64,000 nucleotides of DNA, taken from NCBI GenBank assembly GCA_015178975.1, contig WHVD01000047.1, forward strand, positions 434,001 through 498,000, given 5' to 3'. The position numbers and the translations under genes are program-made. The stretch comes from Hysterangium stoloniferum (lineage: Eukaryota; Basidiomycota; Agaricomycetes; Hysterangiales; Hysterangiaceae). The notes beneath the pieces are model-generated. The model did not search any database and was not told the DNA's origin. It saw only the letters and a list, made by a program, of their open reading frames with translations. Positions 24,703 through 64,000 of the stretch are shown in pieces (the first letter of the stretch is position 1; each line of letters begins with the position of its first letter).

Positions 24703-25295
24703 GTTAGACAATATCTGATATGGGTGATGACCATAAGACCGATGGCCATAAGTGCAAAAGACAAGGTACTAGTCTCAAATTACACCATTGTCATCAACAC
24801 GCACAATTTTATTCCTCACAAATCATTTTGAACTTAGCTTCACGTATCATAGATTCTTTATCCCCCAAAAATGGCCTTATGCATAGACAACATTATCATC
24901 ATCATTACCCACCAACTTTGTGGTCCGTGCGCAACCAGCTTGGCCCAACCCTATATAAAGTGAGTCGGGTCGTAGACTTTTCTTTACCACTCTGGCCTTT
25001 TGGTACGTGCCCCCTACCTTTGTCCGCTTATGACTTATATATTTATGATTATTTTACAGGCTTAGATCAAGTGTAGTATCTGTTCTTTTTAGTTTAACCA
25101 CTAAAATGATCCCACCGGGATCATCATTGGTTAGCCAATTTTTGCTACCCTTGTCCTTGACCTCTGCTTGCATGTGAAGGCAATGATGACCTTGCTATTG
25201 CAGGATCGGCTTGTGTCGTCAGGGGATATCCCCATTACTCTTCATTCCTTCTATCTTTGCTCAGTCCCGCAATTGCCTGGCATTACAGCAACAAG
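24703..25295 (+). repeat. Possible solo LTR (unclassified)
   Basis: Begins TGTTAGACAATATCTGATATG and could end TTACAGCAACA near 25294. It contains a promoter-like CCCTATATAAAGTGAGTC at about 24950 and lacks long coding frames, which fits the general make-up of an LTR of a copia- or gypsy-type fossil. I see no convincing target-site duplication, so the boundaries and the call are tentative. It fills most of the gap between RPT4 and the next gene. Confidence 0.3.
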
Positions 25296-47969: not shown

Positions 47970-48570
47970 CTAACCCTTCTTGAACCCTGAGCGAATCATT
48001 AGAGTATTATAATTATGCCGAGAGATAAACACACCTAGTCGTCGTCGCTCATAGAATAGATCTGTCCGGCTAGCACCCAAATTAACGATCTTCGGACAGC
48101 CATCTCGGTCTTTCTCAAGACGTGTACACTCTGCGCAATAATACGCGTCCGAGATGCCTGAGTTTCTTAAATGAGCCATGCTATTGCAGGCATCATCATA
48201 TAGACGCACCGGGTGAACCGCAGATAATACACCTTCCACCATACGTCCCAAAGTTGCACTCATCGCAGATACGGACGAGGGTTTCTGGCCTAACGTATGA
48301 ATCACAGACAGGACTGCGCAGCTGTGGTAAGTAAACGAGAATAATGCTAACGGAATATCTATTCCCACCATTTACCGTCGCACTTGTCGCATAATCTTCC
48401 AATGGCTGAATTCAAGTGTGGCGTCAGTGGATGTGTTGTGGCAAGCAGTATAGATAATTCCTCACCTATGCCTGGTTGACGGCGACACATGATGAGATCT
48501 ATTTATACAATCAGAAAGATACGGATTGTGCGGGACGGTTGATATGCTGACCTGGATGATGTTTTGACAT
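47970..48570 (-). CDS. RDS3: PHF5A/Rds3 splicing factor, canonical copy
   Basis: A small zinc-knot subunit of the U2 snRNP SF3b complex that helps hold the branch-site helix; nuclear and essential in yeasts. Six exons give 110 residues, the same length as human PHF5[111 protein letters not shown]. All zinc cysteines and Tyr36 are present. Introns follow P-D, G-I, K-C, P-G and L-G. It converges with the PB1/ZZ gene, 121 bp apart. A second, diverged copy is at 53664-54261. Confidence 0.95.
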
Positions 48571-49761
48571 GGTGGAGAGAGAGCTTGAGCTGAATTCAAG
48601 GACGTACACCTAATAATAACAACTTTTGCTTAGTAACATAAGCTCTGAGACTTTGTTTACATAATACGGGTACTTGCAGCACCGTTCAACTAACGTTTTC
48701 TGGCTAATGTTCTTCACAAGCACTCCAGGCCTCACGAATTATAATTTTCGATCTACGCTGTTCTATCCTTCCTTACATACTTTCTTCAAAAGTTGAGTCT
48801 TATCAATGTAAACGGATACGCTCATTATTACAGGGATGATCTTTCGACACTAGCCACAAATTTCGATCGCTTAGACAACTTGAAAAGGACCATAAAAAAG
48901 AATTTTCCTCAAAATATGCAGATTGGTATCCAGAGACAGACCGCTTTCCAACCTACTTTCCAGCGTTATTAGAGATGCAAGATGTCTAGCCCTATGGCTG
49001 ATGGTACGAATAAAGTGAGCATACGCAAGAGATGAGACTAGAATCACTCACGCCCAGTCCAAGAGCTTGCGCAGAATTTTGTCGCGTTCCAGAAGGGGCA
49101 GGAAACTTTCAAATTGAGGCTATATGTCAGCCATGATGGCTCCATGATCGGACTTGCTTTGGGCTTGGGAATCCAAGGCCCATTGAGGTGGCCCGCTCTG
49201 GAAGTGAATTTGTTTTCGAGGCTACTACCGCACAGGTACCTCTGCTTTATCTCTGACTCACACACTTGGCAGGTATGGAGAACGCACGACCGTTCTCTTT
49301 TTGTCCGGGTGATGCACGAAGGGACCCTGCTGTTGGCCTTGAATGGCTGCCGCTCGATAACTTTATTACTCTCCTTGAAAGCAACGTCCCTGAAACTATT
49401 TTTGAGCAATGCCTCACTTAGCTCCATAGTCTATAGTGATATGTAGAGTATCATTAGAGTCTTGCTGTTGCGTTTTGTTGAGTTACGCAGGAGTATTCCG
49501 ACGATACTTGGGATTGAGTACCAAACATGTTTATGCATAACTACATAGAAGTTCAAAGTTCGCATGCAAGATATACTGGCTTGGCCTTGTGACTTTGTCC
49601 TTTTGTCAGTGTAAATACTAGTAGAATAAAAGTAAGGTGCAGTTTGACAAATGTCTAAAGACTCAAATGTATAACGTTACAACAGTGATGTCATTGTTCA
49701 ATATCTATTAGAATGTATGTCTTGTCAATTCTAAATCTTAAATATACTTGATAACCATCAA
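48571..49761. other. Flank of PHF5A copy 1 and left end of the duplicated tRNA unit
   Basis: 48571-48960 is the PHF5A promoter and unassigned spacer. From about 48970 the sequence matches, inverted, the right-hand repeat ending near 60935. 49044-49427 (-) is an open frame (MELSEALLKNSFRDVAFKE, SCVLHTCQVCESEIKQR) whose partner at 60450-60850 (+) is interrupted by a stop after KSEIKQR. In a different frame, both copies encode FESFLPLLE-DKILRK. I do not recognise the protein; it may be an exon fragment. 49450-49761 belongs to the first tRNA repeat unit. Confidence 0.5.
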
Positions 49762-49855
49762 GCCTTGTTAGCTCAACGGTAGAGCGTCAGATTCTTACAG
49801 TCCCACTGACCGGGTAAGAATCTGGAGGTTGCAGGTTCAATTCCTGTGCGAGGTA
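49762..49855 (+). tRNA. tRNA-Lys(CTT), 22-nt intron
   Basis: Acceptor GCCTTGT pairs with GCGAGGT (G-U at the end), discriminator A. D arm GCTC/GAGC, anticodon stem TCAGA/TCTGG, loop TT-CTT-A then A. Intron 49798-49819 lies at the usual position 37/38 and pairs with the loop (TTCTTAC/GTAAGAA). T arm TGCAGGTTCAATTCCTGT. A T run follows at 49858. Confidence 0.88.
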
Positions 49856-50155
49856 AAATTTTTATCCTGTTAGATCACGGCTTCTTTCTCCTATATCTCT
49901 TTTTCCTAATGTGAAATATCGTTAACAATTATGGAACTGGGCATTAAGTACAAACGTGCATATGCAGAACTATAGAATTCAACGTTCGCATCCAAGATAT
50001 GACTTGGTTATTATGACTTTATTCTTTTGTCACTGTAATATGAGTACAACAAAAGTAAGGTGCCGTATGGCAATTGTCTAAAGACTTGAATGTAGAACGT
50101 TGCACCAGTGGTGTCATTGTTCGATATCTATCAGAATGTATGTCCTTTTTACCAA

Positions 50156-50249
50156 GCCTCGTTAGCTCAACGGTAGAGCGTCAGATTCTTACAGTCCCAC
50201 TGACCGGGTAAGAATCTGGAGGTTGCAGGTTCAATTCCTGTGCAGGGCA
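50156..50249 (+). tRNA. tRNA-Lys(CTT), 22-nt intron
   Basis: Same fold, anticodon CTT and intron as the gene at 49762. Acceptor GCCTCGT/GCAGGGC has one mismatch (C5-A68); discriminator A. D, anticodon and T arms are intact, followed by ATATTTTTATCC, a likely pol III terminator. Second unit of the tandem array. Confidence 0.82.
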
Positions 50250-50542
50250 ATATTTTTATCCCGTTGAATCACGGGCTATTTCTCCTACCAAAAGTCCCTT
50301 TTGAGTCCCATATGTATATATATCTTTTTCCGAGTGAAATACTTCTAACCGTCATGGAACTAGTCATCAAGTACCAAACATGTATATGCCAAACTACACA
50401 GAAGTTCAAAGTTCGGATCCTAGATATGACTTGGCCTTATGACTTTATTCCTTTGTCACTGTGAATACTACTACAACAAAAGTAAAGTGTAGTATGGCAA
50501 ATGTCCAAAGACTCCAACAGTGGTGCAATTATTGTCTCTTAA

Positions 50543-50635
50543 GCTTCGTTAGCTCAACGGTAGAGTGTCAGATTCTTACAGTCCCACTGACCGGGTAAGA
50601 TTCTGGGGTTGCAGGTTCAAATTCTGTGCGAGGCA
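50543..50635 (+). tRNA. tRNA-Lys(CTT)-like, slightly degenerate
   Basis: GCTTCGT/GCGAGGC acceptor, anticodon CTT. One base is missing around the 3' anticodon stem (GTAAGATTCTGGGG against GTAAGAATCTGGAGG in its neighbours), and the T loop reads TTCAAAT. It may still fold but looks weaker than 49762; possibly a pseudogene. Confidence 0.6.
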
Positions 50636-50978
50636 ATATTTTTATCCCATTAGATAGCGGGTTCTTTCTCCTACCAAGAGTCCCTTTTGAATCAGCTATA
50701 TATCTCTTTTTCCGAAAGTGAAATATTTTTAACCATTATGGAACTGGCCATTAAGTACCAAACATTCATATGCAGAACTATAGAAGTTCAAAGTCCGCCT
50801 CCAAGATATATTGACTTAGCCTTATGACTTTATTATTCTGTTATCACTATAATACTAGTACAACAAAAGTAAGCTCCAGTATGTCTAAAAAATAGCAGAC
50901 TCAAATACAGAACGTTACAATAGTGGTGTTGTGTCGTTGTTCAGTATCTGTTAGGATAATATATGTCCTGTCAATCAT

Positions 50979-51070
50979 GCCTTGCTAGCTCGGTAGAGTA
51001 TTAGATTCTTACAGCCCCTCTGACCAGGTAAGTGTCTGAAGGTTGCAGGTTCGACTCCTGCGTGAGGGTA
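50979..51070 (+). tRNA. tRNA-Lys(CTT)-like, decayed D loop
   Basis: The D loop is shortened (TAGCTCGGTAGAGTA), the anticodon stem TTAGA/TCTGA and intron (CAGCCCCTCTGACCAGG) differ, and the acceptor GCCTTGC/GTGAGGG is poorly paired. Likely a pseudogene. Its inverted copy is at 63298-63388. Confidence 0.5.
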
Positions 51071-51103
51071 TGTTTTTATCCTGTTAAATCACGGGCTCCT
51101 TCT

Positions 51104-51485
51104 TTTTTTTTTTTTTTTAATACATTTGTGTACCGCATCGCATAACGTAGATACATTGCGGTTGGGAGCAGATATTCTAATGGTAGGTGGATTGGTATGT
51201 AGGTACTGGGGCAAGTAGGTGTGGGTATGCGGGTCAAATGTAGAGTGAGAGAGCAAAGGAAAAAGAGAAAAGAAACTGAGAAGAACTGAGAGGGGCTACG
51301 TCTTGCCAAAGGCATTTGAGGCGTCAATGAATTTTCCCAGAGCAATGAGCCCTTTATGGGTTCTGAGGATGGCGGAGGGGACAGGGCCTGAGAGGCGTCG
51401 ATTAGGAGGTGGCAGTGTTCCTCATATAGAGGGCACTCAGTCAAGATGTGGAGGCGGGACTGAATGACCGCTGTGCCACAGGGGC
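51104..51485 (-). mobile_element. 5'-truncated LINE (non-LTR retrotransposon) insertion, left copy
   Basis: Minus-strand tail of a reverse-transcriptase ORF (IQSRLHILTECPLYEEH, then in a second frame a segment like ILRTHKGLTALGKFI), a 3' UTR and an A-rich tail seen as the T run at about 51102-51118. It is flanked by 15-bp target-site duplications, tcac(a/g)ggctccttct, at 51089-51103 and 51486-51500. It interrupts the spacer after the fourth tRNA. A 5' truncation with long target duplication is typical of LINE integration. The same insertion is in the right copy at 62877-63263. Confidence 0.85.
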
Positions 51486-51500
51486 TCACAGGCTCCTTCT

Positions 51501-53002
51501 CTTACCAAGAATTCCTTTCCAATCAGGAATATATCTCTTTTTCCAAGCGTGTGAAATATTTTTAACTTATGGCACTAGCCATTATGCATATCCAAAACTA
51601 CATGAAGTTTGAATTTTGCATTCCAAGGTATATGTTGACTTCACCTTATGAATTTGTTGATGCAGGGTATAGTCGGTACAAGGGATTGGTCATGTGGGCA
51701 TATTTGAAGTAACTATTTTACAGGTGAATTGATGCATTTGGTATTATTAAGTTCAAATTTTTTATGCTTGTAGAGAAATAGAGGTGTGATAAAGTTAAAC
51801 TGTATAGTGTGAATTCATTATTCAGTCAAGCCATCAACTCCACTCTTAGACACAACTCTTTCTTCATAGGATCAGCAACTTAATTTAGTATAAAGAAATA
51901 GCTCATCTTTATGGTGCTAAATATTTTGCTCGCCCCGTTTGCGTTGTGGGTCGATAGTATTTTTCATTTATTACAACACATTGAATCACCTTTCCGTTTA
52001 TGTGTAAATATTGTTAGATTTTGAGCATCATCCAAGCTTATGTCTCACTTTTAAGTTCCCTTTGTTCATTTATCCACTGTTCCCATTGTCTTCCCTTCCT
52101 AGTATTCTATTATTCTTTTAGTTTATAGACATAGCTACATGCGAATATAGCTCCCTGCACGATTGCGAGGGTCTTCTGCTACCTGAGTACGTGATAGAGA
52201 CATGTGTATTTTAACAAATATTACATGGCAACTAACATGTATCAACTAGTATAGTCCACTAGTCATTGCTGATCCTCGTGTGTCGGTCATTCTTAGACAA
52301 TTGAATTATTGTCAACTGGTGAAGCTGACGACACCAACTGGTTGGCCAGGCATTTGGACTACAGAATATTTCACCGAGGTCACGGTTCAAACTGATCTGA
52401 TATGCTGAACCCACGCCACTTACCCGTCCGTCCTGCTACATTCAAGGGAGCCATATTCAAGGGAGCCATGTTTAAAATCACGCCCAGTTTATTCCTAATT
52501 CTACAAAAAAGCAGAAACTCTAACTTGTAGAGAGCCACCGCCTTGCCGGTTCTTGTAATATTAGACAAAGTCATTGATTCAATGATTTGGGTCTAGTAAT
52601 AAGTAGGTGAGCGAATTGCCTGCCCTTTATTACCACCACTCCCTGTAGTGATGAACATTATTGTAGAAGATGTTGCCTTTTCGGGGGAAATATGCTGCTA
52701 ATGATGCTCTTGCATCTGCAATAACTATTCTACCAGTTCAAACCGAGATCTCAACTCACAGCAGAGCTACACAGGATACCCCACTAACTACCTATCCAGT
52801 ATTACCGTCCAGGAGCCATCGTACATATATATATGCGACTCTTTACAAAAATATATACATTTAAATGGTTTGCGCAACAACCGCCACGCCATGGGGTCAA
52901 TACGGCTGTGCAGTGACGCTGTAGCTTTTGGAGACCATCTATAAGCTCATAACAGGCTGTAAAACGGCATCCGCAATCTACCTTCTCTTGTTAGTACTAT
53001 TT
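51501..53002. other. Duplicated AT-rich spacer
   Basis: No recognisable gene. Matches 61331-62876 in inverted orientation almost throughout. Small open frames present in both copies (52380-52574 and 52670-52864, against 61756-62070 and 61466-61660) have no known motif. The first contains a short duplicated MAPLNMAPLNVAGRTG segment. Confidence 0.5.
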
Positions 53003-53411
53003 TTATTTTTCCGTGGAAGGATCTGTTAGGAGCTGGGAGTCATCAAGAATAACTGACTCGACGACATTGGCTTTCTTGGTTTTAAGCAGCATTTTTTCAG
53101 AAAAATAGTTGGCCATGCTCTTTTCACTTTTTCGTAAAAGATCTGTGGTTTCGTCTGGCCTTTTTGGAGCCTCATCTTTTGAACCATGGAAGCCAAGCCC
53201 ACCACCGAAGCTGGAGAAGGATCCCAATCCAATAGGCTTTTCAAATGGAATATCATTAGTCTCTTGGGCGACTCGATCAGCTGTGTTTGGGGTATTGGGG
53301 GGCGTGTCCTGCTTAGGAAAGGGAGTCGATGATGGATCTGAAGCCGCCATGGATGATGAGATGCCCAGAATTTCATTCATGCCCATGGTCGATGCAGCGG
53401 CCATATGCTTA
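53003..53411 (-). CDS. Unrecognised protein fragment (frame C)
   Basis: An open frame of 133 codons, MAAASTMGMNEILGISSSM, PIGLGSFSSFGGGLGFHGSK, PDETTDLLRKSEKSMANYF, ending LLTDPSTEK. The SMANYFSEKM motif loosely recalls SMxDYFxxKM stretches of fungal G-patch proteins of the Pxr1/PinX1 kind, but there is no G-patch here. Upstream, in another frame, ERLNQNAEVPSFCLEF could be an earlier exon. The partner at 60936 is frame-shifted. It may be the last exon of a captured gene. Confidence 0.35.
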
Positions 53412-53663
53412 GAACTTGTTCTTGGTGCTTCTCAAATACCACAACAAACTCGAGGCAGAATGATGGAACCTCTGCGTTCTGATTTAAACGTTCCAAGCCG
53501 GCAACGATTCTTCGTTTATAATGGCTACCTTTCACTTACATTCCATTTCAACCCCCCCTACCAATAACTTATATGGCCTGGGTCTACGCTAAGAACTCTA
53601 GCAAAAAAATGGTGATTTTTAATGAGTATACCGTAAACCTTTTAAAAGGTTAAATTTAAATAG
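53412..53663. other. Spacer between frame C and PHF5A copy 2
   Basis: About 250 bp holding the possible upstream exon of frame C (near 53440-53530, minus) and the 3' flank of the second PHF5A gene. Not shared with the right-hand duplicated unit. Confidence 0.4.
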
Positions 53664-54261
53664 CTAAGCATTTTTGAACCCTACACGAAATAATTAGGAA
53701 CACGCTACATCTACAGAGACATATAACGCACCGAGTCTTCGTCGATCGTAGGAGAGACCTATCCGGCTTGCACCCAAGTTAACAATCGTGGGACAACCGT
53801 CTCGATCTTTTTCAAGGCGGGTGCATCCCGCGCAATAATATGCATCTGAAATACCTGTCTCCTATATTAGCCACCGTGCTAATGAAGGCATCATACAAAC
53901 GTACCTGGTGAGTTACAGACGATGCACTTTCCACCGCTAGTTCCAAAGTTACACTCATCGCAGATGCGAACCAGCGTTTCTGCTCTAACAGACGAATCAC
54001 ATAGGGGACTGGCAAAGTTTGTTAAATAAATGTAGATAGCTCTGGTATGGTTTATATGCTTACCATCTACCGTCACATTTATCACATACCCTTCCAATGC
54101 CTGATTTCGACCATGAGGTGAGTGGGGGATCGACTATCAATGACAACATGCTCACCTATGCCTGGCTGGCGACGACACATGATGAGGTCTGTTGATATCG
54201 TTAGTCAGGAGACTAATACTAAGTGTTGATAAGTACACTGACCCGGATGATGTTTCGACAT
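53664..54261 (-). CDS. Second PHF5A/Rds3 gene, diverged, Tyr36 to Ser
   Basis: A complete paralogue of the 47970 gene with introns at the same positions and 110 residues: [110 protein letters not shown]. All cysteines of the three-zinc knot are kept and no stop or frame break is present, but 18 positions differ from copy 1. These include A18G, K29R, Y36S, P39A, Y54S, E74G, T96I, D97G and F99S. Tyr36 lines the SF3b pocket that binds pladienolide-type inhibitors and the branch adenosine. Intron retention shows DNA-level duplication. It is either a specialised subunit or an early pseudogene. Confidence 0.88.
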
Positions 54262-54821
54262 ACTTGAAAGCAAAGCGAGTAGACTACTCTGTCTTACAAG
54301 AGTTTATACAAGTGGTGAAATTGTCGGAGCCGAATCGCACCTGATGTGGCATTGTACATGACTCCTTGCCGTTTCTTCTGAGTATCATTTATGGAAAATG
54401 GATTATTACCCTGACTCACCTGTAACTAATGAAGATGCATCAATTCTAGTTCAAGATAAGGCATAAAAATTTAATTCCCAATTACTCGACAGTCGAGAGA
54501 TTTAATTTAATAAATATTTCTACCTACCTTAGTAGATCGTATGCATGAACAACCCAGGACCACGCGACGCGTTATTTGGTGTTGTTTGGGCTCCTGCAAC
54601 TAACCTCAAGGCCACCTTTCTAGACGTCTCCAGTCTTCTGCGGAGGCCTTGCTTTATGATTGAACCTCTACAAGGGCTCACAATAAAAAAAACTTCCCTT
54701 TACGGTGAATTAAAGGTTAGTTACTCAACGAGATTGCCCGCAGACGCGGTGTAATACTCAACTAGGTACTATATGGCTACATTCACGTATATCCACCACT
54801 TATTCAAACATTATTAGGCTA
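54262..54821. promoter_or_regulatory. Divergent region between PHF5A copy 2 and the CM1 protein
   Basis: 560 bp with both promoters. An open frame at 54545-54754 has no recognisable content. No repeats seen. Confidence 0.4.
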
Positions 54822-57800
54822 ATGTCACTACTTTCCGAAAGAATGTTGAATGAATCAGGAGGGACGCTGCCAGATATCTCGTTAGGCAGTCTTGCGGACG
54901 ACCCCCCTTCTACCCCGGGTCCGTCTCAGCGTGGTTCCAGTCTGCGCCCCCGTTTGAAGACAGATACAACTGCAACACCGCTAGGTATGAGGCGCCCCTT
55001 GCCTTCTGGAGATGATCCAGACGAACCAGATTTAAAGGAAGAACCAGCGACACCCATAGCATCGAGAGCCATGCCACGAGTGAGCAATGGGAAGGGAGCG
55101 GTGAATCTCACCTTGAGGGAACAGGAGAAGGTGAATACCGTATGCAATCTCATTATATAACACACTCTGACTAGTGAACGCAGGTCATCGACCTGCTCAA
55201 GAAGGAGAACTTTTCACTCAAACTCAAAGTCCATTTTCTCGAGGGCCGACTTACTGAATTAGCACCCGAGCATGTTGAAGCTGCCTTCAAGCAAAACATC
55301 AATTTGAAGATCGAAGTGCAATCACGCGGTGTAGAACTTAAGAAATACAAGAAATTACTTCTTGAGCTTGAGAAGGAGCTTCAGGTCGCGCAGAAGGGCG
55401 CAGGTGGTTCAAGGGCACGCGAACGTGATCTTGAAGAGGCACTAGCGGAACGAGAACGAGAAGTACGAGAGCTGAGGCGGCGGCGTGCAGTCGGGCCTGA
55501 AGATGGCGCCCTAAGAGAAGCCGAGGCTCATAATGCTGAGCTCGAGGAACAGGTTGAGAATATGAGGGCTATAATGGAAGAGAACGTGAATGAGATTGAC
55601 CGTCTCAAGGACGAGCTCGTTCAAAAGGGCAACGTCTCGATAATTTCGGATGGTGGGGAGAGCAGACGAGCAAGATTAGAACGAAAGCTGGCGGAAGCGG
55701 AGGACGAGATCGAAGACCTTCGTACACAGCATGATGAGGATCTTCAGCTGATTTCCCATCGGGAGGAAGAAAAGGAAGTGCTTGAGGACGAAGTCGAGCG
55801 TTTGAAATTGGAACTAGAGGATTCAGAACGACGGAGAGAGGCGGAATCGTACGAGAGGAGTGAGAGTCGTACACAGCTGCTTGAAGAACGTGATGAGCGT
55901 GATGCGCTTGAAGGGGATCTTAACTCTGTACGAGATCAGCTCGCCGCAACTACGATAGAGCTGCAGCAGCGGGAGGATGACCTTGAGCTCAAGTGTCGGG
56001 AATTTGATGAATTGATCATGGAACATGAACATCAACTGGACGATGCAGGAGCTGCGTGGCGAGGTGAGTTAGAAGAGGTAAGGGGCCAAAACGATGAACT
56101 ACGAGACGTGTGTAAATTCTTTGATAAACCGCCTATATCTCTTACGATTACTCTGTTTAGGTCGTCGCTGAGAATGATGCTGAACTCCGAGAGCTTCGTG
56201 GGCAGCTTGAAGAACAAGATAACTTAATTCGTCGACTCGAAGACGCAGTGGACCTTAAGGAAGAGGAGGTCAAAGCTGCGAATCAAGACATCGAGAAACT
56301 CAGTCAACAGGTTTGGGATCTCGAAGACGAATTGGAACGTCTTAAAGAAGACACCGAGCGGATTAGAGAAGAAGCGGCTGTGGACCGTGAGTCAGCGGAA
56401 AGTGTTGCGACAGCGTTGAAGGAGGTACGTTTGGGCCTTTGATCCATATTGTTCTTATTTCACTGTTATTTTAGAAACTTGCTTCTACCAAGTCACAGTT
56501 GCAAGAATCGACAGCCCTTTACGAACAATATCAACGAGAAATAGTCGCACACCGCGCGCGCCAAGAAGAACTAGGCCAGCACGCTGAGGCACTCGCCGCA
56601 GAGCTTAAATCCGAACGCGACGCTCGCGAGCAGCTCGAAAATGGTCTCGACACACTTGAAAGGCATCGTGAAGATGACACCCGCCGTCATCAACGCCTAC
56701 TCGAAGAGAAAGACTCTGAAATCCGAGCTGCATTGGATAATCTTACGCGCCAGAAAGCACTCCTTGCAGAACGTGATGCAGATCTACAGAATCTACAAAC
56801 GATGGTTCAGAACATGGAGAACGAAACACGGCGTGTAGGCGAAACGCATACTAACGACAAGTTCTCGTTAGAACTAGAACTCGACCGGCTAAAGAGGGAC
56901 TTGTCTAGAACGGAGGACGACTTGAACCGCGCAAGGGCCGAGTTGGCAGACCGGGAAGCACAGAACAGGGACCGGGAGGCGCAGCTGGACAGGCTTCATT
57001 CCTCGAATAGGGACTTGGCTGCGGAAGTTGCCACGCAGACACAGGCACGGTTGAATGCCACGGAAAGACTTGATGCTGCTCAAGTGAATCTGAAGGCGGC
57101 GGAGGGGGAGTTGGGGACCCTAAAAGTTCGCGTGAGTGAACTGGAGTTGAGGTTATCGAAGGACCAGCGGGCATTACTGGCGAACGAGGGTCAATTCAGG
57201 GATCAGCTGACCGAGAGAAATACCCTATTATTGACTATTTATCAGTATATGGAGAAGATTTTGGGTGTAGACAGGATATCGGTGTGTCCAACAACTTATA
57301 TAAATACCCCGAAAAAAAAAAAGATTTACTCTCGACTCAGAAGAAATCCGGCTCTGAAACCAAGCCTTTCACAAATTTCAACGTGTTTCATGACAATTTG
57401 ATTTCCAAGTTGAAAGCTCTAAGCCAGATACAGCTGGATTTCGACAAACGCGCCAAGGATGCCGAAGCACGCCTCATGGAACAGTACCAAGGGGTGAAGA
57501 AACGTTTAGATAATTATTCTAAACAGATTGACAATTTTGAGAAAGTTGTCAAGAGTGCTCTGGAAAATAAACATACCTGGCGGCGTAAATATATGGCGAA
57601 AGAGGGCGAACTCGAGGCATTGAAGGTTTGTTTCTACACATTATCCTGTTACAATCGGTTTAAATACCCAAGTGCAGGCTACAAATACCACACTCAGTTC
57701 GCAACTTACATCCATCAAGGCATCGCCTACTTCCAAAGATGCAGAATTACGAGCCGCAACGGCCAAATTCATGAATTCAGAGCGTCGTATAGTCAATTGC

Positions 57801-58144: not shown

Positions 58145-58864
58145 TCTTTCCCTTGACCTCCGACCCCTTCGTTTTGTATCGACCTTGCTTTCCCTAACGT
58201 AGTTCGTCTTTCTTCCACCTGGATTTCCTAATGATGGTTTTTGATTCCTTTCATTTTTCGTTGCTTAGATATAAACTAATAAATGTATCAATCTTCTCGT
58301 TGTAATCGTATGCAGAATAATTTGTTGGCCGCTTTCTACATAAAAGCATGCCATAAATTTGTTCAATTCATGATAGACATGTTATGCTAATCGTCCGAAT
58401 TGGCCATTTAGGGAGATCGGCTGGACTGGCCTCTGCCAATCACCCTCACAACTACATACGTATATGCCTTCCATTTCCTTGTGCCTGAACGTGGTGAGGG
58501 CGTTTCAGGAATTAAGCTACTATTTCACGGACTGCATATGTAGGGACACAGGCTTGATAGAAGTACATACATTCTAATAGATATCGAACAATGACACCAC
58601 TGTTGCAACGTTCTACATCATTTAAGTCTTTAGACACTGGACCTTACTTTGGGTGTAGTAGTATTTACAGTGACAAAAGAATAAAGCCATAACATATCTA
58701 GGATCCGAACTTTGAACTTCTGTGTAGTTTTGCATATGCATGTTTGTTACTTGATGACTAGTTCCATAACGGTTAAAAATATTTCACAGTAGGAAAAAGG
58801 GATATATACCTGATTCAAAAGGGACGCTTGGTAGGAGAGCCCGTGATTTAACGGGTAAAAATAC
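58145..58864. other. 3' flank of CM1 gene and start of right tRNA repeat
   Basis: 58145-58550 contains the 3' UTR and nothing recognisable. From about 58560 the sequence is the reverse complement of the tRNA spacer found at 49.5-51 kb (ATAGATATCGAACAATGACA and TTTTGCATATGCATGTTTG blocks). Confidence 0.6.
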
Positions 58865-58958
58865 TGCCCCGCACAGGAGTCGAACCTGCAACCTCCAGAC
58901 TCCTACCCGGTCAGCGGGACTGTAAGAATCTGACGCTCTACCACTGAGCTAACAGGGC
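58865..58958 (-). tRNA. tRNA-Lys(CTT), best-paired copy
   Basis: Acceptor GCCCTGT/GCGGGGC is fully paired (two G-U), discriminator A. D arm GCTC/GAGC with loop AGTGGTA, anticodon CTT, intron of 22 nt (CAGTCCCGCTGACCGGG..), T arm TGCAGGTTCGACTCCTGT with the canonical TTCGA. Of all copies here, this is the one most likely to be functional. Confidence 0.9.
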
Positions 58959-59296
58959 TTGATGAGTGGACATACAATCTAATAGATATTGAACAATGAC
59001 AGCACTGTTGGAAGTTCTACATTTGAGTCTTTAGATATCTGCCATACTGCACCTTACTTTTGTTATACTAGTGTTTACAATGACAAAAGGACAAAGTCAT
59101 AAGGCTAAGTCATATCTTGGATGTGAACTTTGAACTTCTGTGTAGTTTCGTATATGCATGGTTGGTACTTGATGACTAGTTCCATAATGGTTAGACATAT
59201 TTCACTCGCTCGGAAACAGAGATATATATGATTCACAAAAGGGACTCTTGGGAGGGGAAAATTCAAAAAGCGCGTGATTTAACAGGATAAAAATAT

Positions 59297-59390
59297 CGCC
59301 CCATACAGGAATCGAACCTGCAACCTCCAGACTCTTACCCGTTCAGTGGGACTGTAAGAATCTGCCGCTCTACCGTTGAGCTAATGAGAC
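59297..59390 (-). tRNA. tRNA-Lys(CTT), variant acceptor
   Basis: Acceptor GTCTCAT/ATGGGGC pairs with G-U wobbles; discriminator is G rather than A. Anticodon CTT. Intron reads CAGTCCCACTGAACGGG; anticodon stem 5' strand is GCAGA. T loop TTCGA. Confidence 0.75.
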
Positions 59391-59668
59391 TTGATAGGGA
59401 GTACATACATTTTAATAGATATTGAACATTGAGACCACTGTTGTAAAGTCTTCAAACTGCACCTTACTTTTGTTGTACTAGTATTTACAGTATTTAGAGT
59501 GACAAAAGAATAAAGTCATAAGGGGAAATCAATACATCTTGGATGCGAACTTCGAACTTCTATAGCATAATTGTCAAAAATAAATTACACGCTCGGAAAA
59601 AGATATACCTGAGTCAAAGGAACTCTTGGCAAGAGGAGGAACCCATGATTTAATGGGATAAAAAATGT

Positions 59669-59762
59669 AGCCTCACACAGGAGTCAATCCTGCAACTTCT
59701 AGACTCCTACCCGGTCAGAAGGACTGTAAGAGTCTGACACTCTACCATTGAGCTAGCAAGGC
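59669..59762 (-). tRNA. tRNA-Lys(CTT)-like, T loop altered
   Basis: Acceptor GCCTTGC/GTGAGGC and anticodon CTT are kept, but the T arm reads TGCAGGATTGACTCCTGT, losing the TTC box-B core needed for pol III, and the anticodon stem contains TCAGA/TCTAG. Probably a pseudogene. Confidence 0.55.
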
Positions 59763-60091
59763 ATGATTGACAGGATATACATTCTAATAGATATTGAACA
59801 ACAACACCACTGTTGTAACGTTCTACAGTTAAGTCTTTAGACATTTGCCATACTGCACCTGACTTTTGGTGTACTAATATTAGTGACAACAGGACAAAGC
59901 CACAAGGCCAAGCCGACACCCGGATGCGAACGCTGAACTTCTATAGTTCTGCATATGCATGTTTGGTACTTAATGCTCAGTTCAATAATGCTTAAAAATA
60001 TTTCACACTCAGTAAAAGAGATATATACCTGATTCAAAAGGGACTCTTGGGTAGGAGAGACAACCCATGTGATTTAATGGGATAAAAACAT

Positions 60092-60185
60092 CGCCTCATA
60101 CAGGAATCGAACCTGCAACCTCCAGATTCTTACCCGGTCAGTGGGACTGTAAGAATCTGGCGCTCTACCGTTGAGCTAACAAGAC
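60092..60185 (-). tRNA. tRNA-Lys(CTT), variant acceptor
   Basis: Acceptor GTCTTGT/ATGAGGC, discriminator G, D arm intact, anticodon stem CCAGA/TCTGG, anticodon CTT, 22-nt intron, T loop TTCGA. Probably foldable; sister of 59297. Confidence 0.75.
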
Positions 60186-60449
60186 TTGATGAATAGGGCA
60201 TACATTATAATAGATATTGAACGATAACAGCACTGTTGTAACGTTATACATTTGAGTCTTCAGACATTTGTCAAACTGCAGCTTACTTTTGTTGTACTAG
60301 TATTTACACTGACAAAAGGATAAAGTCACAAGACCAAGCCAATATATCTTGCATGCAAACTATGTAGTCATGCATATGCATGTTTGGTACTTAATTGCAA
60401 GTATAGTTGGAATACTCCTGCGTAAGTCAACAAAACACAACAGCAAGAC

Positions 60450-60850
60450 TTCAATGATACTCTACACGTCACTATAGAGTGAGCTAATTGAGGCATTGCT
60501 CAAAAATATTCTCAGGGACATTGCTTTCAAGGAGAGTAATAAAGTTATCGAGCGGCCAAGGCCAACAGTGGAAGTCCCTTCGTGCATCGCCCAGACAAAA
60601 AGAGAACAGTCGTGCGTTCTCCACACCTGCCAAGTGTGTAAATCAGAGATAAAGCAGAGATAGCTGCACGGCACTAGCCTCGAAGACAAATTCACTTCCC
60701 AGAGCGGGTCACCTCAACGGACCTTGGATTCCCAAGCCCGAAGCATGTCTGATCATGGAGCCATCATGGCCAACATATAGCCTCAATTTGAAAGTTTCCT
60801 GCCCCTTCTGGAACACGACAAAATTCTGCGCAAGCCCTTCGATCGGGTGT
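60450..60850 (+). pseudogene. Frame A', inverted copy of 49044-49440
   Basis: Encodes the same stretch as frame A (IAFKESNKVIER, SCVLHTCQVCKSEIKQR) with a stop directly after it, followed by TSLEDKFTSRAGHLNGPWIP and SLNLKVSCPFWNTTKF. Not recognised. The interruption suggests that it is not a working gene. Confidence 0.5.
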
Positions 60851-60935
60851 GAGTGATTCTAGTCTCATCTCTCTCACATAGGCTCACTTTATTCGTCCCA
60901 TCAGCCATAGGGCTAGATATCTTGCATCTAAGTGT

Positions 60936-61330
60936 ATGGCCGCTGCATCGACCACGGGCATGAATGAAATTTGCATCTCATTGTCCATGGCGGCTTCAGA
61001 TTCATCATCGACTCCCTTTTCTAAGCAGGACACGCCCCCCAATACCCCAAACACAGCTGATCGAGTCGCCCAAGAGACTAATGATATTCCATATGAACAG
61101 CCTATTGGATTGGGATCCAGCTTCGGTGGTGGGCTTGGCTTCTGTGGTTCAAAAGATGAGACTCCAAAAAGGCCAGACGAAACCACAGATCTTTTACAAA
61201 AAAGTGAAAAGAGCATGGCTGACTATTTTTCTGAAAAATGCTGCTTAAAACCAAGAAAGCCAATGTCGTCGAGTCAGTTATTCTTGATGACTCCCAGCTC
61301 CTAACAGATCCTTCCACGGAAAAATAAAAA
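60936..61330 (+). pseudogene. Frame C', inverted copy of 53003-53411
   Basis: Matches frame C: MAAASTTGMNEI, SSTPFSKQDTPPNTPNTADR, DETTDLLQKSEKSMADYFSE. A one-base loss in an A run near 61238 then shifts the frame, so the conserved ending SVILDDSQLLTDPSTEK is read in another frame. In-frame small deletions (GIS, FS) also separate the copies. Confidence 0.55.
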
Positions 61331-62876
61331 TAGTACTAACGAGAGAAGGTAGATTGCGGATGCCGTTTTACAGCCTGTTATGAGTTTATAGATAGTCTCC
61401 AAAAGCTACAGCATCACTGCACAGCCATATTGATCACATGGGGCGGTGGTTGTTGTGCAAACCATTTAAATGTATTTATTTTTGTAAAGAGTTGCATATA
61501 TATATGTATGATGGCTCCTGGACGGTAATACTGGATAGGTAGTTAGTGGGGTATCCTGTGTAGCTCTGCTGTGAATTGAGATCTCAGTTTGAACTGGTAG
61601 AATAGTTATTGCAGATGCAAGAGCATCATTAGCAGCATATTTCCCCCGAAAAGGCAACATCTTCTACAATAATGTTCATCGCTACAGGGAGTGGTGGTAA
61701 TAAAGGGCAGGCAATTCGCTCACCTACTTATTACTAGACCCAAATCATTGAATCAATGACTTTGTCTAATATTACAAGAACCGGCGGGACGGTGGCTCTC
61801 TACAAGTTAGAGTTTCTGCTTTTTTGTAGAATTAGGAATAAACCGGGCGTGATTTTAAACATGGCTCCCTTGAATATGGCTCCCTTGAATGTAGCAGGAC
61901 GGACGGGTAACGGTGCGGGTTCAGCATATCAGATCAGTTTGAACCGTGACCTCGGTGAAATATTCTGTAGTCCGAATGCCCAGCCAACCAGTTGGTGTCG
62001 TCAGCTTCACCAGTTGACAATAATTCAATTGTCTAAGAATGACCGACACACGAGGATCAGCGATGACTAGTGGACTATACTAGTTGATACCTGTTAGTTG
62101 CCATGTAATATTTGTTAAAATATGCATGTCTCTATCATGTACTCAGGTAGCAGAAGACCCTCACAATCGCGCAGGGAGCTATATTCGCATGTAGATAAAC
62201 TAAAAAAATAATAGAATACTAGGAAGGGAAGACAATGGGGACAGTGGAAATGCTAAAATATGCAATAGGGGGAACAATGGATAAATGAACAAAGGGAACT
62301 TAAAAGTGAGACATAAGCTTGGATGATGCTCAAAATCTAACAATATTTACACATAAACGGAAAGGTGATTCAATGTGTTGTAATAAATGAAAAATACTAT
62401 CGACCCACAATGCAAATGGGGCGAGCAAAATATTTAGCACCATAAAGATGAGCTATTTCTTTATACTAAATTAAGTTGCTGATCCTATGAAGAAAGAGTT
62501 GTGTCTAAGAGTGGAGTTGATGGCTTGACTGAATAATGAATTCACACTATACAGTTTAATTGACAACTTTATCACACCTCTATTTCTCTACAAGCATAAA
62601 AAAATTTGAACTTAATAATACCAAATGCATCAATTCACCTGTGAAATAGTTACTTCAAATATGCCCACATGACCAATCCCTTGTACCGACTATACCCTGC
62701 GTCAACAAATTCATAAGGTGAAGTCAACATGTACCTTGGGATGCAAAATTCAAACTTCATGTAGTTTTGGATATGCATAATGGCTAGTGCCATAAGTTAA
62801 AAATATTTCACACGGTTGGAAAAAGAGATATATTCCTGATTGGAAAGGAATTCTTGGTAAGAGAAGGAGCCTGTGA
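61331..62876. other. Duplicated AT-rich spacer, right copy
   Basis: Inverse of 51486-53002, with scattered substitutions and small indels. Includes the TATATATATG tract near 61500 and the MAPLNMAPLNV-coding frame at 61756-62070. No gene supported. Confidence 0.55.
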
Positions 62877-63263
62877 GCCCCTGTGGCACAGCGGTCATTC
62901 AGTCCGCCTCCACATCTTGACCGAGTGCCCTCTATAATAGGAACACCGCCACCTCCTAATCAATGCCTCTCAGGCCCTGTCCCCTCCACCATCCTCAGAA
63001 CCCATAAAGGGCTCACTGCTCTGGGAAAATTCATTGACGCCTCAAACGCCTTTGGCAAGACGTAGCCCCTCTCAATTTTTCTCAGTTTCTTTTCTCTTTT
63101 TCCTTTGCTCTCTCACTCTACATTTGACCTGCATACCCACACCTACTCGCCCCAGTACCTACATACCAATCCACCTACCATTAGAGTACCTGCTCCCAAC
63201 CACAATGTATCTACATTATGCGATGCGGTACACAAATGTATTAAAAAAAAAAAAGGAAAAAAA
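62877..63263 (+). mobile_element. 5'-truncated LINE insertion, right copy
   Basis: The same LINE 3' end as at 51104-51485, on + here: GCCCCTGTGGCACAGCGG at its left end, STILRTHKGLTALGKFIDAS then NAFGKT and a stop, 3' UTR and an A-rich tail (63240-63263). Target duplications agaaggagcctgtga at 62862-62876 and 63264-63278 are identical. Sharing the insertion site with the left copy shows that it inserted before the unit was duplicated. Confidence 0.85.
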
Positions 63264-63297
63264 AGAAGGAGCCTGTGATTTAACAGGATAAAAACAT

Positions 63298-63388
63298 AGC
63301 CTCACGCAGGAGTCGAACCTGCAACCTTCAGACACTTACCTGGTCAGAGGGGCTGTAAGAATCTAATACTCTACTGAGCTAGCAAGGT
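63298..63388 (-). tRNA. tRNA-Lys(CTT)-like, decayed (copy of 50979)
   Basis: Inverted counterpart of 50979-51070: the same shortened D loop (TAGCTCAGTAGAGTA), TTAGA anticodon stem and CAGCCCCTCTGACCAGG intron. Likely a pseudogene duplicated with the unit. Confidence 0.5.
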
Positions 63389-63727
63389 GTGATTGACAGG
63401 ACATATCCTAACAGATACTGAACAACGACACGACACCACTATTGTAACGTTCTGTATTTGAGTCTGCTATTTTTTAGACATACTGGAGCTTACTTTTGTT
63501 GTACTAGTATTATAGTGATAGGAGAATAATAAAGTCATAAGGCTAAGTCAATATATCTTGGAGGCGGACTTTGAACTTCTATAGTTTCTGCATATGAATG
63601 TTTGGTACTTAATGGCCAGTTCCATAATGGTTAAAAATATTTCACTTTCAGAAAAAGATATATATAACTGATTCAAAAGGGACTCTTGGTAGGAGAAAGA
63701 ACCCGCTATCTAACGGGATAAAAATAT

Positions 63728-63820
63728 TGCCTCACACAGGAATTGAACCTGCAACCCCAGAATCTTACCCGGTCAGTGGGACTGTAAGAATCTGACGCTC
63801 TACCGTTGAGCTAACAAAGC
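63728..63820 (-). tRNA. tRNA-Lys(CTT)-like (copy of 50543)
   Basis: Acceptor GCTTTGT/GTGAGGC, discriminator A, anticodon CTT, the same intron and the same one-base loss after GTAAGA as its left counterpart at 50543, followed by GGTTGCAGGTTCAATTCCTG. The window ends before the next unit. Confidence 0.65.
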
Positions 63821-64000
63821 TTAAGAGACAATAATTGCACCACTGTTGGAGTCTTTGGACATTTGCCATACTACACTTTACTTTTGTTGTAGTAGTATTT
63901 GTTGGATTTTGGGAATCTGATATGCGAGCAACAAGGAGCACGGACCACATGCCTATATTAGTAAGCAGTTACTAGGCGTATACATATAAGGTCGATACAT

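Follow-up and report, generated by a model that had tools for sequence, protein, structure and literature searches.

The 64,000-nucleotide stretch of Hysterangium stoloniferum DNA analyzed here (the window) carries two intact genes for PHF5A/Rds3, an SF3b subunit of the U2 snRNP, and the second of them (copy 2) has been kept under long purifying selection with Ser in place of the Tyr36, and Arg in place of the Lys29, of its canonical neighbor (copy 1). The explanation that we prefer, at a probability of roughly 0.45, is that copy 2 is a long-retained coding paralogue giving rise to an alternative SF3b that lacks the Tyr36 ring, is competent in splicing, and tolerates SF3b inhibitors. This figure is the product of its three steps: copy 2 is very probably a working paralogue, its product has a somewhat better than even chance of assembling into SF3b, and tolerance is likely once assembly is granted. 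Transcription of copy 2, incorporation of its product into SF3b, and tolerance of inhibitors are what we infer from sequence.

Two complete PHF5A/Rds3 genes

As the original prediction had it, two complete 110-residue PHF5A genes lie about 5 kb apart on the same strand with the same intron positions, and our gene models agree (Table 1). Both are on the minus strand, at a distance of 5.1 kb, and each encodes 110 residues plus a stop in exons of 19, 33, 37, 104, 123, and 17 nt that are identical in length between the copies; the five introns, all of GT..AG type and at corresponding positions, measure 50–55 nt in copy 2 and 48–60 nt in copy 1. The proteins are identical at 92/110 residues, and copy 2 shares 70/110 with human PHF5A. 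The count of changes given in the same prediction (Y36S, K29R, and 16 others, with every cysteine kept) proved exact: the 18 replacements from copy 1 to copy 2 are A18G, L22V, K29R, V32L, Y36S, P39A, Y54S, R57K, I60V, G62N, E74G, K87T, T96I, D97G, F99S, E101D, K109N, and G110A, and 12/12 copy 1 cysteines are retained.

By the measures that define the family, copy 2 is a PHF5A/Rds3 protein. It covers positions 1–103 of the 104 in the PF03660 (PHF5) profile, both copies score far above the cut-off of 26.7 bits, and in its length of 110 residues and its 12 cysteines it is like the known subunit, of whose 13 human cysteines 12 bind zinc (PMC5458519; papers are cited by PMC number, for the portions of their text that were available), all 12 zinc-ligand cysteines being present. 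It departs from the family in the canonical branch pocket, since Tyr36 and Lys29 are each common to copy 1, human, and yeast and copy 2 has neither.

Table 1. Positions in the window of the PHF5A/Rds3 pair, the exons of copy 2, and its presumed promoter
Feature	Positions	Strand	Remarks
PHF5A/Rds3 paralogue (copy 2), whole gene	53664..54261	-	six exons, 110 aa, K29R and Y36S; Pfam PF03660 158.0 bits
Copy 2 exon 1, ATG at 54261	54243..54261	-	gene model
Copy 2 exon 2	54156..54188	-	gene model
Copy 2 exon 3	54064..54100	-	codon 29 AGA (Arg), AAA (Lys) in copy 1
Copy 2 exon 4	53905..54008	-	codon 36 TCT (Ser), TAC (Tyr) in copy 1
Copy 2 exon 5	53732..53854	-	gene model
Copy 2 exon 6 and stop	53664..53680	-	gene model
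Canonical PHF5A/Rds3 (copy 1)	47970..48570	-	six exons, same positions; Tyr36 and Lys29 kept; Pfam 175.9 bits
Presumed copy 2 promoter stretch, up to probable ATG (54822) of divergent gene	54262..54821	.	inferred

The ATG that bounds the presumed promoter stretch was read by eye, and a Cnn_1N match at 55178–56224 is probably the next exon of the same gene, which diverges from copy 2. When the 111-Mb, 554-contig assembly was searched with the protein and with the Pfam profile, each search returned 4 exon-level PHF5 matches, all of them in copies 1 and 2. This exon-by-exon search, which a highly diverged or short-exon copy could escape, found no third PHF5 locus in the 111-Mb assembly, nor did a check of the window and the 20 kb beyond it find any further PHF5A, the single match there (L018, E 0.65) being at chance level. 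Relatives of copy 2 are unlikely among bacterial, archaeal, and viral contigs: 22 pattern matches in the first two groups yielded no confirmed case, and viral contigs gave none. The premise that PHF5A is normally single-copy does not hold everywhere, as rice likewise has two genes, OsPHF5A1 and OsPHF5A2; the rice genes encode identical Tyr36 proteins, whereas the pair described here has diverged, with dS of ~1.1 (PMC8100303).

It is highly improbable that copy 2 is an artefact of assembly or contamination. Although the neighborhood is repetitive, with tRNA arrays and inverted duplications, the copies share intron positions, both reside on one 606-kb contig, and the 72 nucleotide differences between them include 53 in the third codon position. 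Two of the three bases of codon 36 differ, and together with the overall number of differences this speaks against the idea, raised earlier, that the base under Tyr36 might be an assembly error.

Age of the pair and selection on copy 2

Pairwise estimates by NG86, LWL85, and YN00 gave dN values of 0.083, 0.082, and 0.097 and dS values of 1.84, 1.21, and 1.00, respectively. Maximum likelihood under GY94 gave dS = 1.14, dN = 0.093, and ω = 0.082, with a pairwise likelihood profile range for ω of about 0.04–0.15; ω = 1 is rejected by a likelihood-ratio test (p = 7e-18), and the dN/dS comparison that had been proposed for the pair comes out well away from 1. The copies differ at 24/41 fourfold sites and use a different codon for 47 of the 92 amino acids that they share. 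No similarity was found in the 600 bp flanking the copies on either side. Introns 4 and 5 are clearly homologous, shuffled sequences scoring as high in only 0/500 and 4/500 cases, and introns 1–3 are less alignable (32, 21, and 15 of 500 shuffles, respectively). The absence of flank similarity, the small number of alignable introns, and the high dS together indicate that the duplication is old.

Divergence has been one-sided. Of the 18 changes, 16 can be polarized, copy 1 having the human or yeast state at each, and all of these fall on copy 2 (16/16, binomial p = 3e-5). Assigning every replacement and one half of dS to copy 2 gives, by simple arithmetic, a copy 2-specific ω of ~0.16, and copy 2 would seem to have been under selection, yet more loosely than copy 1. 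Where copy 1, human, and yeast agree, copy 2 was changed at 8/51 sites, with 8.3 expected, and at 8/39, with 7.2 expected, when cysteines are left aside; conserved sites were thus hit about as often as chance predicts, and the cysteine scaffold was held while the conserved remainder was not. Judged by this pattern, the constraint on copy 2 is real but altered, and the chance-rate changes at conserved sites would fit a general loosening as well as directed change.

In neutral simulations, 86, 13, and 0 of 2000 runs ended with an intact open reading frame at 0.25, 0.5, and 0.9 substitutions per site, respectively. Simulating instead a full recent relaxation that yields 18 replacements (5000 runs, indels ignored), we found the reading frame still open in 1430 runs, of which 151 also kept every cysteine and 31 kept the splice dinucleotides in addition; survival of the frame alone is possible by luck and becomes rare only jointly with the cysteines and splice sites. 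In copy 2 the splice dinucleotides are all intact, and a CTNAY branch-site-like motif with its A 13–19 nt before the acceptor is present in 4/5 introns, being absent from intron 3, as compared with 5/5 in copy 1. The five introns, the open reading frame, and the ω of 0.082 are not those of a processed or decaying pseudogene, and it is well supported that copy 2 has encoded a functional protein during most of the time since the duplication.

One option in the original prediction, a recently relaxed duplicate, is accordingly disfavored by dS of ~1.1, ω of 0.082, joint survival in only 31/5000 runs, and dissimilar flanks. A gene that was long kept and then recently freed of constraint, and is now on its way to becoming a pseudogene, could account for the replacement of conserved sites at the chance rate and for several drastic changes (Y36S, Y54S, E74G, and F99S, each scoring −2 in BLOSUM62). 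We consider this very unlikely, because it too would require the reading frame, cysteines, and splice dinucleotides to have survived together, even if the frame by itself survives in 1430 of the 5000 runs.

Relative to random synonymous draws at an assumed 42% GC, the codon usage of copy 2 shows no difference (z = 0.93) and that of copy 1 a mild one (z = 2.25), and this weaker bias of copy 2 hints at a level of expression below that of copy 1. It also fits a rival explanation that we regard as possible, if doubtful, namely that copy 2 still functions, under loose constraint, as a backup of copy 1 or for dosage. Partial redundancy would then have allowed the protein surface to drift, including Tyr36 and Lys29, with no special role toward drugs or branch sites. 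The one-sided divergence, the chance rate of non-cysteine changes on conserved sites (8 against 7.2 expected), and the lack of an excess of pocket hits (see below) agree with such a backup, as does the retention in rice of two PHF5A genes with identical proteins (PMC8100303). Set against it is the ω of 0.08 overall (~0.16 for copy 2), which means continuing selection, yet Tyr36 was given up. Pure redundancy, in addition, seldom survives to dS of ~1.1.

The branch-adenosine pocket and its partners

Tyr36 contacts the branch adenosine and K1071 and R1075 of SF3B1 (PMC5458519), and the same side chain touches inhibitors as well as the branch adenosine (PMC5458519, PMC5859971). Human cells with PHF5A Y36S or Y36A are reported to be strongly resistant to SF3b inhibitors, and basal splicing to be minimally affected by Y36C (PMC5458519). 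Spliceostatins are covalently captured by Cys26 with the aid of Lys29, and cells with K29A or K29R are less sensitive to SSA/SD6, the effect being mild (PMC8302644). Arg38 has been added to the pocket residues (PMC5859971), and the PHF5A/Rds3 side of the pocket is described as the same in human and yeast (PMC10592967). Copy 2 retains Cys26 and Arg38 and has lost Tyr54 along with Tyr36; the pocket that it forms is predicted to lack an aromatic ring at position 36 and to have Arg at position 29. The mutants engineered or drug-selected in human cells (Y36C, Y36S, and Y36A, PMC5458519; K29R, PMC8302644) include the same Ser36 and Arg29 states, but copy 2 combines both in a natural second gene, with 16 more changes, beside an intact Tyr36/Lys29 copy 1. 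In rice, expression of Y36C from a single locus led to partial inhibitor tolerance (PMC8100303). There are also contrary reports: after knock-down of PHF5A, rescue with Y36F or Y36E failed to stop cell death in long culture (PMC9911754), and Y36C rice had more differentially expressed and spliced genes under control conditions (PMC8100303), so that replacing Tyr36 may be costly. The drastic replacements F99S, D97G, and Y54S could also weaken assembly of the copy 2 product.

Two of the four named pocket positions (C26, K29, Y36, and R38) are among the 18 changes, with P = 0.12, or 0.086 without the cysteine, values that would rise if V37 (mutated in PMC5458519) were added. At P = 0.09–0.12 the pocket is not hit beyond chance, and selection for tolerance is unproven. 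The RNA-facing regions, 27/110 positions, contain 9/18 changes (P = 0.0097 taken alone); the same trend is present between copy 1 and yeast (17/46, P = 0.0099) and between copy 1 and human (9/24, P = 0.084), and an enrichment special to copy 2 was rejected (Fisher p = 0.53 against copy 1–human and 0.40 against copy 1–yeast). Phosphorylation of Tyr36 and acetylation of Lys29 are known for PHF5A in human cells. Their loss as a loss of regulation was set aside, the named kinases being TrkA and ABL1, which are animal enzymes.

Turning to the partners, a search with the N-terminal domain PF08920 alone gave one SF3B1 locus, SF3B2 gave one match (DUF382), SF3B5 gave one match over the cut-off and another that falls short of it at 16.3 bits, and CPSF_A matches lie on three contigs, which we presume to be those of SF3B3, CPSF1, and DDB1. 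Among the SF3b subunits tested (the check covered SF3B1, SF3B2, SF3B5, and CPSF_A), PHF5A is the only one that is doubled. Co-duplication of partners is disfavored by the single matches of SF3B1, SF3B2, and SF3B5, counted over the cut-off in the last case, and an additional PHF5A would accordingly be expected to associate with partners shared by both copies. Residues 1–17 of copy 2, including the SF3B5 contact at 6–12 (PMC5458519), are unchanged from copy 1.

PMC5859971 lists SF3B1 residues L1066, K1071, R1074, R1075, V1078, V1110, V1114, and Y1157 as contacting inhibitors; each of them has the human identity here, and the alignment also places Ser at position 1108. The sensitivity of Cryptococcus neoformans to pladienolide B has been explained by a hydrophobic Val and a hydrophilic Ser at the sites equivalent to S. 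cerevisiae 747 and 777 (PMC12306170); by offset these would be human SF3B1 1078 and 1108, where V1078 and S1108 here appear to match that Val/Ser pair. By these residues the SF3B1 pocket is of the drug-sensitive type, and with copy 1 it should form a normal, sensitive pocket. An altered U2 branch-recognition RNA was rejected, as the branch-binding stretch is invariant at all seven U2 loci in the assembly (7/7). Differences among the U2 loci are confined to their 3′ half and the very tip of the 5′ end, and the lowest-scoring of the seven is a full-length match in the window (25039–25228, plus strand; 96.5 bits, Rfam RF00004).

Could copy 2 act outside SF3b, for example in chromatin or transcription binding or as a stage-specific regulator competing with copy 1? 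None of the other SF3b subunits tested is duplicated, Tyr36 and Tyr54 are both lost (Tyr36 and Tyr51/Tyr54 being the contact sides toward SF3B1; PMC9911754), and the C-terminal part carries T96I, D97G, F99S, and K109N. We nevertheless hold such a role to be quite unlikely, given that the cysteines and the N-terminal SF3B5-contact strip are unchanged and the whole-family profile score is still 158 bits. PHF5A is part of SF3b in both the major and the minor spliceosome, a point in favor of copy 2 serving the minor (U12-type) one, with SF3b shared between the two. This reading is disfavored, and we regard it as very improbable: U12 RNA gave no match at E values up to 10, a threshold at which sub-threshold noise appeared in 7/14 bacterial and archaeal controls, and U6atac gave no match in the assembly, a result of little weight since that search rang in no control genome.

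In the alternative, inhibitor-tolerant SF3b that we prefer, the copy 2 product would fold on the same 12 cysteines and replace its copy 1 counterpart in part of the SF3b particles, together with the SF3B1 of this genome. These particles would have a branch-adenosine pocket with Arg at 29 and without the ring that touches inhibitors; U2 snRNPs containing them would still splice most introns, would have low affinity for inhibitors of the pladienolide, herboxidiene, and spliceostatin types, and might choose differently among weak branch sites. The earlier proposal of an alternative SF3b, one tolerant of inhibitors or with a preference for other branch sites, gains strength from the long retention of copy 2, from the lowered inhibitor sensitivity reported for Ser36 and Arg29 in human cells, and from an SF3B1 that was found at one locus and is of the sensitive type; the function itself is still a prediction, and the pocket hits are not in excess. 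We put forward more tentatively that two SF3b populations, a sensitive one with Tyr36 and a tolerant one with Ser36 and Arg29, have long been kept because of bacterial inhibitors or special introns. Selection for tolerance alone is an unlikely cause of retention. Inhibitor selection, a special intron set, and a tolerated loose backup are all compatible with the sequence.

Known systems and the surroundings of the pair

A literature search in which subscription journals were mostly outside coverage found no report of a natural PHF5A lacking Tyr36, only engineered or drug-selected changes of this residue, and to the extent of the literature searched, a natural old PHF5A paralogue with Ser36 and Arg29 is new. 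If copy 2 joins SF3b, it offers a natural experiment on the role of Tyr36. PMC10592967 asks, in the part available, whether bacterial splicing inhibitors drive spliceosome evolution in eukaryotic microbes, and copy 2 would make one form of that question testable. Should the reading with two populations be true, the core spliceosome would itself contain a natural defence at the target site, or else a second reader of the branch point. Fungal biosynthetic clusters can contain self-resistance genes that arose by target duplication, that is, a second, inhibitor-insensitive copy of the target, and copy 2 is like these only if the predicted tolerance is real. A nearby polyketide cluster with copy 2 as its self-resistance gene is weakened as a candidate, as 0 of 16 ketoacyl synthase matches in the genome are on the contig of copy 2, polyketide being the only cluster type searched.

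The region of copy 2 is flanked by inverted segmental duplications (48973–53413 and 58837–63899). Within them, 50464–53413 is 94.5% identical to 63899–60927, and 48973–51098 is 77.7% identical to 60929–58837, with 88% for its non-tRNA start (48973–49520). The two blocks abut at ~60928 in the inverted copy, and at the main locus a PHF5A gene lies beyond each block end. These duplications (77.7–94.5% identity by block) are less diverged than the PHF5A pair is at silent sites, a comparison of ages that is limited by the fact that array repeats can stay alike through conversion. Nine similar tRNA matches form inverted arrays, three on the plus strand (49762–50635) and six on the minus strand (58865–60185 and 63298–63820). 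ARAGORN finds four of these tRNAs and assigns them the anticodon TTA, one that would decode a stop; a long hairpin in them suggests instead an intron and, after splicing, a Lys-CTT anticodon. A duplicated open frame of ~130–140 residues (GLGSFSSFGGGLGF...) is present at 53006–53431 (minus strand), where it adjoins the 3′ end of copy 2 and has no Pfam match, and at 60882–61301 (plus strand). Fragments at 51079–51501 (minus strand) and 62941–63288 (plus strand) seem, from a CPLYEEHCHLL stretch, to resemble the end of a non-LTR retrotransposon.
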